From positions 4,944,001 to 5,008,000 of the forward strand of contig NZ_CP109078.1 in assembly GCF_035917455.1 (NCBI RefSeq): 64,000 bases of DNA. Direction: 5' to 3'. This document shows, one piece after another, positions 54,016 through 60,575 of the stretch. This DNA is from Micromonospora sp. NBC_01796 (GTDB lineage Bacteria > Actinomycetota > Actinomycetes > Mycobacteriales > Micromonosporaceae). Each line of letters opens with the position of its first letter. The first letter of the stretch is position 1. The notes below the pieces were generated by a model. The model ran no database searches. It had not been told where the DNA came from and was given only the letters and a program-made list of their open reading frames with translations. The translations under genes were made by a program, and so were the position numbers.

Positions 54016-55047
54016 TCAGCCGGCGAGCGCGGCGACGCTGCCCTGCCGGGCGTCGAGCGCCTGCTGGTACAGCCGACCCGCCCGGTACGACGAGCGCACC
54101 AGCGGCCCGCTCATCACCCCGGCGAAACCGATCTGCTCCGCCTCGGCGGCCAGCTCGACGAACTCCTCCGGCTTCACCCAACGCTCCACCGGGTGGTGGC
54201 GCGGGGTCGGGCGCAGGTACTGCGTGATGGTGATCAGCTCGCAGCCGGCCGCGTGCAGGTCGCGCAGCGCCTGGGAGATCTCCTCGCGCTGCTCGCCCAG
54301 CCCGAGGATCAGGTTGGACTTGGTCACCAGACCGGCCGCACGGGCCTGGGTGATGACGTCCAGGGACCGCTCGTAACGGAAACCGGGCCGGATCCGCTTG
54401 AAGATCCGGGGCACGGTCTCCACGTTGTGGGCCAGGACCTCCGGCCGGGAACCGAACACCTCGGCGAGCTGCTGCGGGTCGCCGTTGAAGTCGGGGATCA
54501 GCAACTCGACGCCGCAACCGCCCTGGAGGGCGTGGATCTGGCGGACCGTCTCGGCGTAGAGCCAGGCACCACCGTCGGGCAGGTCGTCGCGGGCCACCCC
54601 GGTCACCGTCGCGTACCGCAGGCCCATGGTGGCGACCGACTCACCGACCCGGCGCGGCTCGTCGGCGTCGAACTCGGCCGGCTTGCCGGTGTCGATCTGG
54701 CAGAAGTCGCAACGGCGGGTGCACTGGTCACCGCCGATGAGGAAGGTCGCCTCGCGGTCTTCCCAACACTCGTAGATGTTGGGGCAGCCGGCCTCCTGAC
54801 AGACCGTGTGCAGCCCCTCCCGGGAGACCAGGCTGCGAAGCTGGGTGTACTCCGGACCCATCTTCGCCTTGACCTTGATCCACGGCGGCTTCCGCTCGAT
54901 CGGCGTCGCCGCGTTGCGCGCCTCGACGCGGAGCAGGCGGCGCCCCTCGGGTGCCGCGGGTCCGGTGGTCCGAGGGCCCGAAGCGGTGGCGACGTTGCCG
55001 GCCGGCTGCGGCGCGGCAGTCGGCGTTCCGGATTGCTCGATGGTCAC
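54016..55047 (-). CDS. lipA: Lipoyl synthase
   Basis: A 343-residue radical-SAM enzyme that inserts two sulfurs into protein-bound octanoate. Both iron-sulfur sites are visible: [13 protein letters not shown] (auxiliary cluster) and [10 protein letters not shown] (the C-x3-C-x2-C radical-SAM site) in the first 130 residues. [20 protein letters not shown] and [20 protein letters not shown] are the conserved core, and [17 protein letters not shown] and RSSYRAGRL the end. GTG 55047 gives an N-terminus MTIEQSG-like; longer readings add little. It diverges from the T-box-controlled synthetase. LipB is 1.8 kb away, facing the same way. Confidence 0.96.
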
Positions 55048-55180
55048 GAATCCGAGCCTACGCGTAGCAGGTGGTCGGTGGCGGCGTAGGCGACGGGGCT
55101 CACTACCCGTTGGTTGTGATCGCACTCACCCACCCCCGGAGAAACCCGCTCCCGGGCCCGACCGGCGCCTGTTAGGGTCT

Positions 55181-55474
55181 CCCGCAACAGCGACGACGGA
55201 GCCGAGTAACGGTACGACCAGCGGGGCGCAGAGAGTCACCGGTAGCTGCGAAGGTGACACCCGTCCGGGCCGTGAAGACCCTCCTGAGCTGCGGGAAGAA
55301 CGATGTCGGGGCCGCAGGCCACGGCATCCAGTAGAGCCCGCCGACCGGCCCACGTCACGGGCGACGAAAGAGGCCGTCGACGGTTCGCCGCCCGACGGCG
55401 AAGGTGTGGTGGCACCGCGAGGTTCCCGCTCGCCCACACCTCCCTGGGGATCGCGTTGCGATTGACGAGGAGGT
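55181..55474 (+). ncRNA. T-box leader with a GAC (Asp) specifier, translational type
   Basis: Upstream of the synthetase. Stem I base: CCCG (55181-55184) and CAGC (55188-55191) pair with GCTG (55288-55291) and CGGG (55292-55295). GGAG (55198-55201) pairs with CTCC (55281-55284), followed by TGAG as in the K-turn of known T-boxes. Directly before CTCC the segment GTGAAGACC places GAC (55277-55279, Asp) where GGC stands in glyQS. The T-box motif GGTGGCACCGCGAGG (from about 55408) carries UGGC, whose C pairs with discriminator G of tRNA-Asp. GGTGTGG (55403-55409) can pair CCACACC (55434-55440); otherwise ACCTCC (55438-55443) can sequester the ribosome site GGAGGT (55469-55474), so control is probably at translation. 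Confidence 0.85.
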
Positions 55475-55482
55475 AACACCAC

Positions 55483-56808
55483 ATGCGACGCGTCCTTTCC
55501 ACCTCCCTGCCCACCCAGGTCGGCGAAACCGTCACCGTTGCCGGCTGGCTGCACCGCCGCCGGCTGCTCAAATCGGTGGCGTTCCTGATCGTGCGCGACG
55601 CCGGTGGGCTGACCCAGGTCGTGGTCACCGACCCGGAGCTACGGGCCCGGCTGACCGAACTGCCCGAGGAGACCGTGGTCGAGGTCATCGGCGAGGTCGC
55701 CGCGAACCCCGCCGCGCCCGCCGGGGTCGAGCTGGTGAAGCCTTCGGTACGCCTGCTCGGCGAACCCGCCGTACCGCCGCCGTTCGACCTGTACCGGCCG
55801 GCCCTGGCCGCCACCCTGCCGACCCAACTCGACCACGCCTCGGTGGCGCTGCGCCACCCGACCCGGTCGGCGCCGCTACGGATCTCCGCCGCCGCCGTGG
55901 CCGGTTTCCGGGCCACCCTGGACAACCGCGACTTCGTCGAGGTGCAGACCCCGAAACTGGTCGCCGGCGCGACCGAGAGCGGGGCGAACGTCTTCGCCCT
56001 CGACTACTTCGGGCGGCCCGCGTACCTGGCCCAGTCGCCGCAGTTCTACAAGCAGCTGATGGTCGGCGTCTTCGAGCGGGTGTACGAGGTCGGGCCGGTG
56101 TTCCGCGCCGAACCGCACGACACCGCCCGCCACCTGGCCCAGTACACCTCACTCGACGTCGAGTTCGGGTTCGTCGACGACCACCGGGACGTGATGGGGA
56201 TGCTGCGCGAGGTGCTCGCCGGCATGCTCGACTCGGTTGCCGTACGGGCTGCCGGTGCGGTGGCCACCCTCGGGATCGAACTGCCGTCGGTGCCGGCCGA
56301 GATCCCGTCGGTGCACTTCACCGAGGCACTGCGGATCGCCGGTGCCGAGCCGGACGAACCCGACCTCGCCCCCGCCCACGAACGGGCACTGGGGGAGTGG
56401 GCCCGCGCCGAGTACGGCTCCGACTTCCTCTTCGTCACCGGCTACCCGATGGCGAAGCGACCCTTCTACACCCACCCGGCCCGACCGGGCAGCCCCGAAC
56501 ACCGGCCGGCGCGTACGGGTGCGGTGGAGCCGGCGTACTCGAACGGGTTCGACCTGCTCTTCCGTGGGGTCGAACTGGTCACCGGCGGTCAGCGCCTGCA
56601 CCGGCACGCCGACTACCTGGCGGCCCTCGCCGCCCGGGGCGAGCCGGTCGGGCCGGTCGAGACCTACGTGGCGGCGTTCCGGCACGGGATGCCGCCGCAC
56701 GGCGGGTTCGCGATCGGGCTGGAACGGTTCGTCTCCCGGCTGACCGGTGCCGCCAACGTCCGTGAGGTCACCGCCTTCCCGCGCGACCTGCACCGGCTGA
56801 CCCCGTAG
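55483..56808 (+). CDS. Aspartyl-tRNA synthetase, archaeal type (COG0017), probably non-discriminating
   Basis: A 441-residue class II synthetase. The OB-fold anticodon-binding domain is at residues 5-105 (VTVAGWLHRRRLLKSVAFLI, VVVTDPELRARL). Class II motif 2: YEVGPVFRAEPHDTARHLAQ then YTSLDVEFGFVDD, which reads as AspRS (TSLDVE) rather than AsnRS. Motif 3: GGFAIGLERFVSRLTGAANV, ending FPRDLHRLTP as in archaeal AspRS. The length is 441, against about 580-600 for the bacterial type with its GAD insert. Such AspRS can charge both tRNA-Asp and tRNA-Asn. ATG 55483 is 9 nt after GGAGG of the T-box. This is probably a second AspRS beside the standard one, which lies elsewhere. Confidence 0.88.
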   Translation: MRRVLSTSLPTQVGETVTVAGWLHRRRLLKSVAFLIVRDAGGLTQVVVTDPELRARLTELPEETVVEVIGEVAANPAAPAGVELVKPSVRLLGEPAVPPPFDLYRPALAATLPTQLDHASVALRHPTRSAPLRISAAAVAGFRATLDNRDFVEVQTPKLVAGATESGANVFALDYFGRPAYLAQSPQFYKQLMVGVFERVYEVGPVFRAEPHDTARHLAQYTSLDVEFGFVDDHRDVMGMLREVLAGMLDSVAVRAAGAVATLGIELPSVPAEIPSVHFTEALRIAGAEPDEPDLAPAHERALGEWARAEYGSDFLFVTGYPMAKRPFYTHPARPGSPEHRPARTGAVEPAYSNGFDLLFRGVELVTGGQRLHRHADYLAALAARGEPVGPVETYVAAFRHGMPPHGGFAIGLERFVSRLTGAANVREVTAFPRDLHRLTP

Positions 56809-56878: not shown

Positions 56879-57517
56879 CTAGCCGAGCAGGGTCGGCAGG
56901 CGGTGTTCGACCAGGGGGAGCAGATCGGCCACGGTCACCCGGCGGCCGAGTTCGGCGGTGAGCGAGGTGACACCGGCGTCGCGGATCCCGCACGGCACGA
57001 TCTGGTCGAAAGCGCCCAGGTCGCAGTCGCAGTTGATGGAGAACCCGTGCAGGGTCACGCCACGGGCCACCCGGATGCCGAGAGCGGCGACCTTCCGGGC
57101 CGGACCGCGCTCGTCCTGCGCCACCCAGACCCCGCTGCGGCCGTCGATCCGTACCGTGGGCAGGCCCACCTCGGCGCAGACCTCCATCAGCATGTCCTCG
57201 GTCCGCCGCACGTACGCGACCACGTCCACCGGATCCGGCAGCTTCACGATCGGGTAGCCGACGAGCTGCCCCGGCCCGTGCCAGGTCAGCTTCCCGCCCC
57301 GGTCGACGTCGATCACCGGAGTGCCGTCGATCGGCCGGTCGGCCGGCTCGGTGCGCTTGCCCGCGGTGTAGACGCTCGGGTGTTCCAGCAGCAGGACCGT
57401 GTCCGGCTGCTCACCGGCGACCACCGCCGCGTGCAGACGGCGCTGTTCCTCCCAGGCGGCCAGATAGTCGATCTCGCCGACGTGGACGGCCCGCAGGCCG
57501 GAAATAGTGCTGGTCAC
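56879..57517 (-). CDS. lipB: Octanoyl-ACP:protein octanoyltransferase
   Basis: A 212-residue transferase moving octanoyl from ACP to lipoyl domains, the step before lipA. Diagnostic: [15 protein letters not shown], then [18 protein letters not shown] (the conserved GR/K-x-T-x-HGPGQ motif), [20 protein letters not shown] (Lys) and [17 protein letters not shown] with the catalytic Cys of IVPCGI. GTG 57517 is adjacent to GGAGGG; ATG 57547 adds ten residues. Together with lipA this provides the endogenous route for pyruvate and glycine-cleavage enzyme modification. Confidence 0.95.
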
Positions 57518-57589
57518 GCCCTCCAGACTAGTCCCGCCCAGCGTCAAAACCCCCGGTGACCGTGCTCACCGCGACCCGGCTGGTTTCCA

Positions 57590-57639: not shown

Positions 57640-57732
57640 CGGGAGGGCCGGGCTGTGGATGGGGTGGCGTGTCGTCCACAGGGGGAGGGGGAGGGGTGGC
57701 GGGAGAGGGGACGGGGGGACAGGGTTTCTCGG

Positions 57733-58668
57733 GTGTTCGATGAGTTGGTTGTTCGGCAGCACGGGGTGCTGACACGGGCGCAGGCGTACGCGTGTGGGCT
57801 GAGCAAGGCGCAGGTGGAAGCGCGAGTACGGGGCGGGCGGTGGCGGTTCCTGTTCGGGCGGGTCCTCGCCACGTTCACCGGTACCCCGCCTCGGGAGGCG
57901 CTGCTCTGGGCTGCGGTGTTGCGGGCCGGACGGGGTGCCGTACTCAGTCACGAGACGGCGGGGGAACTTCAGGGACTGGTCGACCGTCCGTCCGACCCGG
58001 TTCGGTTGACCGTTCCCGCCGACCGCCGGATCAGCGCTGTGGCCGGGATCGTGGTGCACCTCTCGGCCCGAGCGGCGGCGGCGCGACATCCGACTCGGTT
58101 GCCGCCGCAGACCCGGATCGAGGAGACGGTGCTCGACCTGACCCAGCAGGCGGGCACCCTCGATGACGCACTGGGCTGGTTGGCCCGCGCCTGTGGCCGG
58201 CGACTCACCACCGCCGACCGGATCCGGAAGGCGATCGGCGGGCGGGCGAAGCTGCGCTGGCGTACGGAACTGCTCGCGGCGCTCGGCGACACCGCCGACG
58301 GATGCCATTCACTGCTGGAGTTGCGCTACCTGCGTGACGTCGAGCGGGCGCACGGGCTGCCGACCGGCGTACGCCAGGCGGTGCGCCCCCGCCGTGGCGG
58401 CCGGTGGTACGACGACGTCGCCTACGACGCCTGGCGCACCCGCGTGGAACTCGACGGCCGGGCCGCGCATCCGCCCGACCGGCGCTGGCGCGACACCCAT
58501 CGCGACAACGCCGCCGCAGCAGCCGGCGAAACCACCCTGCGCTACGGCTGGACCGACGTCACCCGAACGCCCTGTGCCACCGCCCACCAGGTGGCACAGG
58601 TACTCCGCCACCACGGCTGGCCCCGCCAACCCCGCCCCTGCGGCCCGAACTGCCCGATCCCTCCGTGA
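57733..58668 (+). CDS. AbiEi-type antitoxin-domain protein with DUF559-like nuclease C-terminus
   Basis: A 311-residue protein. The N-terminal helix-turn-helix VVRQHGVLTRAQAYACGLSK, followed by VRGGRWRFLFGRVLATF, is the AbiEi antitoxin N-terminal domain, which usually regulates its own promoter. The last 100 residues are a Vsr/DUF559-like endonuclease region: YDDVAYDAWRTRVELDGRAA, RWRDTHRDNAAAAAGETTLR, GWTDVTRTPC and HHGWPRQPRPCGPNC. The D...E-x-D core is the likely metal site. No partner AbiEii nucleotidyltransferase is adjacent, so it is a solitary member, common in actinobacteria. GTG 57733 is chosen; its stop TGA lies in the palindromic repeat. Confidence 0.75.
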   Translation: MFDELVVRQHGVLTRAQAYACGLSKAQVEARVRGGRWRFLFGRVLATFTGTPPREALLWAAVLRAGRGAVLSHETAGELQGLVDRPSDPVRLTVPADRRISAVAGIVVHLSARAAAARHPTRLPPQTRIEETVLDLTQQAGTLDDALGWLARACGRRLTTADRIRKAIGGRAKLRWRTELLAALGDTADGCHSLLELRYLRDVERAHGLPTGVRQAVRPRRGGRWYDDVAYDAWRTRVELDGRAAHPPDRRWRDTHRDNAAAAAGETTLRYGWTDVTRTPCATAHQVAQVLRHHGWPRQPRPCGPNCPIPP

Positions 58669-58724: not shown

Positions 58725-60575
58725 TCACGCCGGGGGGAGGGGCCAGAGGTAGACGTCGTCGGCGCGTTGGGGTGGGCCGAGGAGGGCGGTGGCGGTTTGG
58801 CGGAGGGCGTCTACGTGGACGGGGTACTTGGCGCCGTGTACGCGGTCGGCGAGCACCACCACCTCGACCCGCCAGTGGCGCAGGTCGGCGCGGGCGGTGG
58901 CCCGGTCGGCGTCGCTGATCGGTGGCACGACGCCGGTCTGTGCGACCTCGGCGAACAGGGCGTCGGTGAACCGGGGGACCGGGCCGATCCGGCCCCGCCC
59001 GTCCGGGCCGCCGGGGCCGAGGAAGAAGCCGGACGGGATGGCGAACTCGCCCTGCCGGTGGGCGAGGGCGTACGCCTGCCAGCGCTGCCCGTCCGGGGTC
59101 ACGTCGAGGGTGAACGGCAGCGGTGCCAGTACGCCGTTCGCGCTGACGTACTCGCGCCAGTCGCCGGAGGTGATGAACCTCGGGATCGGTTCCCGTTCGA
59201 TCGTCAGCAGGCTCACCGGCAGCAGCGGCAGGAGGGCGACCGCGAAGCCGACCGTCCAGCCGATCCGAACCCGCCGGTCCAGCCGCGCCTTCGCCAGGTG
59301 CTCCACCGCGTACGCGAGCAGCAGGCCGAGTACGGGTGCCACCACCAGGGCGAGTCGGGACGGCAGTGCGGCGTTGAACACCGGCAGCTTGCCGAGCAGC
59401 GCGTACGGCAGCGGAAAGTCGAGGATGTGGCCGTCGACCTTGATCCTGGGTCCCCAGGACAGGACGGCGAAGACCGTGGCGGTGACCGCGAGGGCCCGCA
59501 GGGTGGCCCGGCGTCCGGCGTCGGCGTGCCGCCAGAGCAGGGCGAGGCAGAGCACCGCGAGGATCAGCAGCGGCAGCCCGAAGAACGAGTTCTCCTCGGT
59601 CGGGTTGGGTGCGAGCGAGGAGTCCAGTCCGGCCACGCCGGCCAGCGACCGGGCCGGGAAGGCACCGAAGGCGAGGATGTCCTCGGCGTGGATCCGGGGG
59701 TCGAAGCCGGTGCCGTGGTAACGCTGCGGGCCGAGGAAGTGCAACCACAACGGGTACGACAGCAGGGCGAACGCCACCGCCCCGGCAACGGCGAGCCCGC
59801 GCAGGAAGGTGGGCAGGGCGGCCCGTGCCTGCGCCCGCCGGCTCCGGTCCAGTGACCAGGTGCCGAGCCACACCGCGCAGGCCAGGGCGGTGAAGAACAG
59901 TCCCTCGGCGGCGATCGAGAACGTCACCGCGACCAGCACCCCGAGTACGACGCCGTTGCGTACCCAGCGTCCCTGCGCGTGCAGGTTCAGGACCCGCCAG
60001 AGCAGGAGCGGGACCAGCCAGCCGGCGGTCCAGTTCAGGTGGGCGTTGGCGTGCGACACCATGCCGGGGGCGAAGCCGATGAAGAGCCCGCCGAGCAGGG
60101 CCGCCGGGCGGTGCCGGACCAGGTGCCGGGAGAGCAGCCAGTACCAGGCGAGCGCGGTCGCGGCCAGGTTGAGCGTGAGTACGACCAGGAAGGTCGCCGG
60201 TGGCCCGATCAGGTACGTCAGCGGGGCGAAGACCACGGCGTACACGGTGATCGAGGTGTTGACCGCGAGGTTGACCCCGTCGGGTGCGTTGAGCAGCGAC
60301 GTGAACAACGGGTCGGCGCCGTGAGTGAACGCGTGCGCACCGTAGGCGAGCAGCCATTCGAAGAGGGCCTGGTCGCTGGAGTTGACCGTGATCGCCCGGC
60401 CGTTCGGGTCGCCCCACAGGCCACTGGTCACCCAGACCGCGAGGGCCACCGCCGCGACGAGGGCGAGCAGGTCAACCCGCCTGTCCCGGGGCGCCCCGGT
60501 CGGTCGTACGGGTGGTGGCGGCGGGTCGGAACCGGCCGGCGTCGGCCCGGCGACCAGGGACGAGGAGATCGGCAC
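58725..60575 (-). CDS. Large polytopic membrane protein, GT-C-like
   Basis: A 616-residue protein with about 11 hydrophobic helices. A Pro-rich N-terminus, then VDLLALVAAVALAVWVTSGL (first helix). An early loop NSSDQALFEWLLAYGAHAFT and LFIGFAPGMVSHANAHLNWT resemble the acidic catalytic loops of GT-C mannosyl- or glucosyltransferases. The C-terminal 180 residues are extracytoplasmic (EREPIPRFITSGDWREYVSA, FTLDVTPDGQRWQAYALA). It probably transfers or handles lipid-linked sugars at the membrane, but the catalytic residues are not certain. ATG 60575 is the first start. Confidence 0.7.
   Translation of the reverse strand: MPISSSLVAGPTPAGSDPPPPPVRPTGAPRDRRVDLLALVAAVALAVWVTSGLWGDPNGRAITVNSSDQALFEWLLAYGAHAFTHGADPLFTSLLNAPDGVNLAVNTSITVYAVVFAPLTYLIGPPATFLVVLTLNLAATALAWYWLLSRHLVRHRPAALLGGLFIGFAPGMVSHANAHLNWTAGWLVPLLLWRVLNLHAQGRWVRNGVVLGVLVAVTFSIAAEGLFFTALACAVWLGTWSLDRSRRAQARAALPTFLRGLAVAGAVAFALLSYPLWLHFLGPQRYHGTGFDPRIHAEDILAFGAFPARSLAGVAGLDSSLAPNPTEENSFFGLPLLILAVLCLALLWRHADAGRRATLRALAVTATVFAVLSWGPRIKVDGHILDFPLPYALLGKLPVFNAALPSRLALVVAPVLGLLLAYAVEHLAKARLDRRVRIGWTVGFAVALLPLLPVSLLTIEREPIPRFITSGDWREYVSANGVLAPLPFTLDVTPDGQRWQAYALAHRQGEFAIPSGFFLGPGGPDGRGRIGPVPRFTDALFAEVAQTGVVPPISDADRATARADLRHWRVEVVVLADRVHGAKYPVHVDALRQTATALLGPPQRADDVYLWPLPPA

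Follow-up and report, generated by a model that had tools for sequence, protein, structure and literature searches.

A T-box leader with an aspartate specifier predicted to control translation of a second aspartyl-tRNA synthetase in Micromonospora

Introduction

The aspS T-box of Clostridium acetobutylicum has two specifiers, binds two tRNAs and belongs to a gatCAB operon. Translational T-boxes of actinobacterial ileS were reportedly the subject of work by Sherwood in 2015, and Saad is said to have worked on the C. acetobutylicum aspS T-box in 2012 and 2013. Translational T-boxes of actinobacterial ileS are described in a portion of Seliverstov 2005 (PMC1262725), and a section of PMC2494555 places a T-box upstream of one of the C. 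acetobutylicum aspS genes. Passages of PMC7583486 present a long Stem I as typical of transcriptional T-boxes and attribute one to a few translational T-boxes as well, while a second aspartyl-tRNA synthetase (AspRS) is called rare in bacteria in a passage of PMC4206432. According to part of PMC7778990, actinobacterial reference genomes were scanned with the class II translational model of TBDB, and leaders of the Asp kind may therefore be listed there; aspS goes unmentioned in the portion of that paper's text on TBDB. In the paper listings and passages that we consulted, no actinobacterial aspS T-box came up, which is no proof that none has been published, and no paper was found on Micromonospora together with T-box riboswitches.

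We analyzed a window of 64,000 nucleotides (bases 4944001-5008000 of the 8.56-Mb, one-contig genome of Micromonospora sp. NBC_01796), in which an initial annotation had proposed a T-box leader with an Asp specifier upstream of an archaeal-type AspRS gene, here termed aspS2, with AspRS2 as its product.

Results

A cmscan search of the whole window at Rfam gathering scores returned no matches, the cut-off of RF00230 being 93 bits; the match listed in Table 1 was obtained with an E-value threshold in place of the gathering score. The covariance-model check named in the initial annotation nevertheless came out in favor of a T-box, with RF00230 matching over its full length at 53 bits, though under the 93-bit gathering score. 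In a whole-genome search, the leader was the sole T-box match (E=2.9e-10). A T-box match (E<=0.001) was present in 250 of 300 genomes of the family and none of the 300 exceeded the 93-bit cut-off, suggesting that low RF00230 scores are usual in Micromonosporaceae. The fold-stability check went the other way: compared with shuffled sequences, the 320-nt leader had a z of 0.31, and 61 of 100 shuffles were equally or more stable. What sets the leader apart from chance is comparison, namely the compensatory changes, seen in Stem I as well as in the antisequestrator, and the presence of the same gene downstream in relatives. Both the leader and the 441-aa open reading frame were found at the positions first assigned to them, and the proposed Stem I pairing was borne out by the covariance match together with covariation. 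By sequence comparison, the leader upstream of aspS2 is confirmed as a T-box, a predicted new member of the actinobacterial translational kind.

Table 1. Features of the aspS2 locus and its leader (window coordinates)
Feature	Position	Strand	Evidence
lipA, flanks aspS2	54016-55125	-	
T-box leader, RF00230 end to end (1-219 of 219)	55184-55440	+	53 bits, E=1e-10
Stem I, approximate ends; distal arm present	55190-55292	+	RF00230 alignment, covariation in relatives
Loop-E AGTA in Stem I, opposite GAA	55205-55208	+	RF00230 alignment
GAA just before specifier	55274-55276	+	coordinates checked
Specifier codon GAC (Asp)	55277-55279	+	coordinates checked; 142/142 pattern-matched leaders
AGTA, S-turn-like motif, Stem II	55330-55333	+	RF00230 alignment; name after a passage of PMC7583486
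F-box-like CCACGTCACG, Stem IIA/B region	55350-55359	+	likeness to the F-box in a passage of PMC7583486
Stem III hairpin GCCGTCG/CGACGGC	55373-55399	+	folding
Antisequestrator: A1 GGTGTGG/CCACACC, A2 GCGAG/CTCGC	55403-55440	+	covariation; -17.3 kcal/mol
T-box bulge UGGC (in UGGCACC), predicted to face G73-CCA of tRNA-Asp	55410-55413	+	
Anti-Shine-Dalgarno strand ACCTCC; ACC common to A1	55438-55443	+	
P element CGCGTTGCG, core GCGTTGC, complementary to start region	55452-55460	+	weak covariation
Shine-Dalgarno GGAGGT	55469-55474	+	coordinates checked
aspS2, archaeal-type AspRS, 441 aa	55483-56808	+	NF003483 521.1 bits, GAD domain absent
TGCGACGCG: start-codon U+G, codons 2-4 (codon 4: first base); P-element partner	55484-55492	+	prediction
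lipB, flanks aspS2	56879-57547	-	

Compensatory changes were observed in 17 of the 21 predicted pairs of Stem I in an alignment of 19 rows less than 84% alike, which had been selected by a pattern containing GAAGAC. Since this selection presumes GAC, a second pattern was used in which the specifier was left open; it fitted 142 of the 180 leaders, and every one of these has GAC, in agreement with the GAC (Asp) specifier first read in Stem I and with the AspRS gene downstream. Among the 38 non-matching leaders, seven carry a GAAGAC that the pattern missed, and in three (L072, L130 and L115) the T-box or Stem I is gone; the other 28 have a short Stem I with GAC in or near the hairpin loop, as read by eye in 16 of the 28, a reading to be taken with the frequency of GAC triplets in mind. 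Most leaders have a long Stem I; Catellatospora and others have a short one, and in several it is reduced to a hairpin with GAC in the loop. Stem I of the window leader is long, and the shortened form usual for translational (class II) T-boxes was not found there. L190 resembles L191, of the same family, as if the distal Stem I arm had been deleted, with GAC kept between the strands of the base helix.

A tRNA-Asp(GTC) gene was located in the genome of the window by pattern search and ARAGORN, and its discriminator base, G73, fits the C of the UGGC bulge, as had been proposed for a bulge facing the discriminator G of tRNA-Asp. In a search of 18 genomes, the wider pattern matched tRNA-Asp in all 18 and a stricter first pattern in one; G73 was present in 16 of 16 genes read, including 12 of 12 read from genomes with UGGU leaders (e.g. 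L040, L073, L075, L088). Opposite a UGGU bulge, G73 implies a U.G contact and not a Watson-Crick pair, which argues against strict discriminator matching.

The antisequestrator was examined in a 28-row alignment, in which 99.4% of the cells were paired and two-sided changes were seen at three pairs (11 cells). Eleven such cells occurred in none of 500 shuffles and three pairs in 13 of 500, while the number of further pair types was not unusual (127 of 500). Folded each alone, the antisequestrator and the SD-sequestering helix reached -17.3 and -18.1 kcal/mol, respectively. The 3' strand of A1 (55434-55440) overlaps the anti-SD strand by ACC at 55438-55440, making antisequestrator and sequestrator mutually exclusive, and this three-base overlap makes translational control the most likely mode. 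In the SD helix itself, two-sided changes are nearly absent among relatives. A terminator-like site was looked for in 55000-55600 and not found, so that the original proposal of SD sequestration by ACCTCC, with control at translation, agrees with both the overlap and this result. Judged from these sequence features, control of aspS2 is most likely translational and would be switched on by uncharged tRNA-Asp.

We also examined the encoded enzyme and its counterparts in the genome. AspRS2 scored 521.1 bits against NF003483, aspartate--tRNA(Asn) ligase (cut-off 353), and 332.9 bits against TIGR00458 (aspS_nondisc), below the cut-off of 368.4. Its H24 and P79 align with H and P of Thermus thermophilus AspRS2 and with W26 and K85 of Thermococcus kodakarensis AspRS, positions that we take to bear on tRNA-Asn recognition. 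The closest solved structure is that of T. thermophilus AspRS2 (PDB 1n9w, 3kfu; E=5e-107 for 1n9w). The protein contains PF00152 and an OB fold and lacks the GAD domain, the absence of which serves in a passage of PMC4206432 as a criterion for archaeal-type AspRS; with a class II D/K/N core free of GAD and an NF003483 score over the cut-off, the archaeal-type assignment held. PF00152 was found in three proteins of the genome, a 602-aa AspRS (AspRS1), LysRS and AspRS2; AsnRS was not found among these matches, and GatB is present. AspRS1, which contains GAD, is of the bacterial type, so that AspRS2 is indeed a second AspRS, as had been suspected. The nearest relatives of AspRS1 are mycobacterial enzymes, two of three entries being labelled Asp/Asn ligase, and in its RRRD(H/L)G motif H replaces the L of Escherichia coli, presumably the mark of a non-discriminating enzyme. 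Both AspRS1 and AspRS2 thus look non-discriminating from their sequences, so that AspRS2 appears redundant, as would fit an inducible supplement.

Within the locus, aspS2 is the only gene downstream of the leader; the next gene, lipB, lies on the opposite strand, and the GatB gene is located elsewhere in the genome. Two open reading frames near lipB, of 337 aa (57655-58668, + strand) and 616 aa (58725-60575, - strand), gave no NCBIfam matches at E<=0.001.

To describe the distribution of the leader, we searched for AspRS2 in 300 family genomes and found it (E<=1e-80) in 243 of them, representing 32 of 44 genera; in 296 genomes drawn from the class it was found (E<=1e-70) in 18, of which 15 lie outside the family. 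The loci read comprised 70 (30 of the AspRS2 matches listed and a further 40 chosen manually for divergence), 80 named loci, mostly from Micromonospora and also from Plantactinospora, Catellatospora, Actinoplanes, Amorphoplanes, Phytohabitans, Asanoa, Catenuloplanes and Verrucosispora, and 30 further loci selected for divergence; some species occur in both the named and the unnamed sets. The T-box motif stood at the expected place before AspRS2 in 148 of 150 loci with overlapping species (135 UGGC, 13 UGGU), L072 and L130 being without it, so the leader is kept in close relatives, a point on which the first interpretation could have failed. It was present in 29 of the 30 divergent loci (in L223 by eye only; the start of L229 was not readable) and, by eye, in 14 of 15 loci outside the family, the exception being L199, where the AspRS2 match begins at residue 91. 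Six of these 15 leaders were matched by cmscan, two of them in Stem I only. These observations refine the picture: as far as sequences indicate, the leader accompanies AspRS2 in the greater part of the family and also in further actinobacterial families, and would not be specific to one genome.

Of 30 family T-box loci listed, eight precede AspRS2, and 19 of the other 22 have an open reading frame beginning like IleRS; all nine of these that were scanned match ileS, a known T-box gene, with scores below the full-length cut-off because the open reading frames are cut by the locus end.

Several leaders depart from the common layout. L115 (Micromonospora sp. NBS 11-29) carries a repeat-like insert, GGAAGGGCCCC...GGGGCCCCTT, in place of Stem I, and in L130 (M. 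sonchi) an insert of the same kind (GGAAGGGCCCC...GGGGCCCCTT) replaces most of the leader; on sequence grounds these two are apparent natural loss variants of the switch. In L094 and L104, the linker between Stem I and the antisequestrator is repeat-rich and exceeds the usual length by more than 200 nt, with specifier and T-box kept. Sequestrators vary as well. The pair ACCTCC/GGAGGT is mostly accompanied by the P element, and leaders without a P element use CACACCTCC/GGAGGTGTG or shorter forms. In the group with longer spacers, 20 of 40 leaders have GGGCTG/CAGCCC as their longest helix in the SD region, and outside the family CACTCC/GGAGTG in L194 and ACCTCCAGG/CCTGGAGGT in L193 were recognized by eye.

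Pairing of at least 7 bp between spacer and start region is possible in 82 of 92 distinct leaders with a T-box-to-start distance below 80 nt and in 13 of 40 with a distance of at least 80 nt. When spacers were shuffled, p<=0.05 was obtained in 79 of 84 leaders with GCGTTGC versus 1 of 45 without, for sequences that are related and a group that is defined by the P element itself. In the 28-row alignment, made up of leaders picked because they carry the element, covariation amounted to one pair with two-sided change, equalled in 42 of 500 shuffles, the whole score being equalled in 2 of 500. An alternative pair in L069, CGCGCCA/TGGCGCG, lies in a shifted register and so is not column-wise compensation, and the rare CAA codon proves nothing, since the start CAACGC also occurs in relatives without a P element. 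When 90 short-spacer leaders with a P element were folded without pseudoknots, 47 formed a hairpin in the start region, 36 of the 47 together with the antisequestrator, and the window leader extended by 33 nt of coding sequence formed none; in view of these mixed folds, the P element is perhaps a permanent clamp, or nothing. We tentatively consider, as a possibility rather on the doubtful side, that the off state is a pseudoknot in which ACCTCC clamps the SD while P clamps the start-codon U and G together with codons 2-4, making coding sequence part of the switch, and that in lineages without P its place would be taken by an extended SD helix (CACACCTCC/GGAGGTGTG) or by a hairpin insertion (GGGCTG/CAGCCC). 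If this were true, a single tRNA-Asp sensor would serve three or more expression platforms.

Discussion

We consider it highly probable that the leader acts as a T-box riboswitch, responding to the charging state of tRNA-Asp and thereby regulating translation of the gene for a second AspRS. By analogy with known T-boxes, uncharged tRNA-Asp(GUC) would contact the leader twice, its anticodon pairing with GAC and its 3' terminus with the UGGC bulge, and would stabilize the antisequestrator, which would then occupy ACC of ACCUCC. With ACCUCC engaged, GGAGGU would be free and aspS2 translated; charged tRNA-Asp would be unable to make the bulge contact, so that ACCUCC would pair with GGAGGU and translation would stay low. 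AspRS2 would in this way top up the bacterial-type AspRS1 during shortage of Asp-tRNA, and we infer that a backup role fits the evidence.

Other modes of action were weighed against this mechanism. Termination of transcription, the mode of most T-boxes in Firmicutes, would suit the long Stem I, which part of PMC7583486 describes as typical of transcriptional T-boxes; it is nonetheless improbable here, given that 55000-55600 holds no terminator-like site, that the anti-SD strand overlaps the antisequestrator and that relatives show sequestrators of other sequence. The leader might instead sense tRNA-Asn, or both tRNA-Asp and tRNA-Asn as in the C. acetobutylicum T-box, a notion encouraged by the family name of AspRS2, aspartate--tRNA(Asn) ligase, and by H24 and P79, shared with T. 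thermophilus AspRS2; the presence of GAC, and never AAC, in all 142 pattern-matched leaders leaves it very little room. A decayed T-box that has ceased to regulate would account for the low covariance score, the lack of excess stability and the losses in L072, L115 and L130, and is highly improbable in the face of a specifier, bulge and helices that are retained with compensatory changes. Transcriptional control, sensing of tRNA-Asn or of two tRNAs, and decay were accordingly rejected on the evidence of the GAC specifier, the lack of a terminator-like site and the compensatory changes.

A different question is what AspRS2 is for. Micromonosporaceae include antibiotic producers, and a second synthetase induced by uncharged tRNA could equally have a special purpose or confer self-resistance, for instance to an inhibitor of AspRS; the T-box would then act as its inducer, in place of a backup role. 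We regard this as unlikely, since aspS2 lies between lipA and lipB and in no recognized biosynthetic cluster, the occurrence of AspRS2 in 243 of 300 family genomes suggests a general role, and a literature search on the subject returned nothing.

For the preferred reading, tRNA-controlled translation of a supplementary AspRS, the features that appear new are the Asp specificity, the several sequestrator designs and the leaders in which Stem I is shortened but GAC retained; possibly, and with weaker backing, these are joined by a conserved element whose sequence is complementary to that around the start codon and which may act as a pseudoknot or clamp. A second AspRS is frequent in this family and, in the loci read, nearly always stands behind an Asp T-box. 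Asp T-boxes would thus offer a second system, beside ileS, for studying tRNA-controlled translation, and since long, short and hairpin-only forms of Stem I occur with GAC kept, matched leaders would allow tests of how losing the tRNA-elbow-binding arm matters. In actinomycetes, the leader might further be used as a reporter of Asp-tRNA charging.

In contrast to the C. acetobutylicum aspS T-box, the leader described here has a single conserved GAC and is predicted to be translational, in a genome where AsnRS was not found and without a gatCAB operon; the two are alike in that a T-box precedes one of several AspRS genes (a section of PMC2494555). T. thermophilus AspRS2 is a non-discriminating archaeal-type enzyme, as the Micromonospora AspRS2 appears to be. 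With the translational T-boxes of ileS, as a portion of PMC1262725 describes them, the leader shares the T-box, the antisequestrator, the SD-sequestering hairpin and an aminoacyl-tRNA synthetase gene. The amino acid there is Ile, whereas here it is Asp and the gene encodes a second AspRS, and Stem I is long in most Asp leaders but intermediate or ultrashort in most ileS T-boxes (a passage of PMC7583486).
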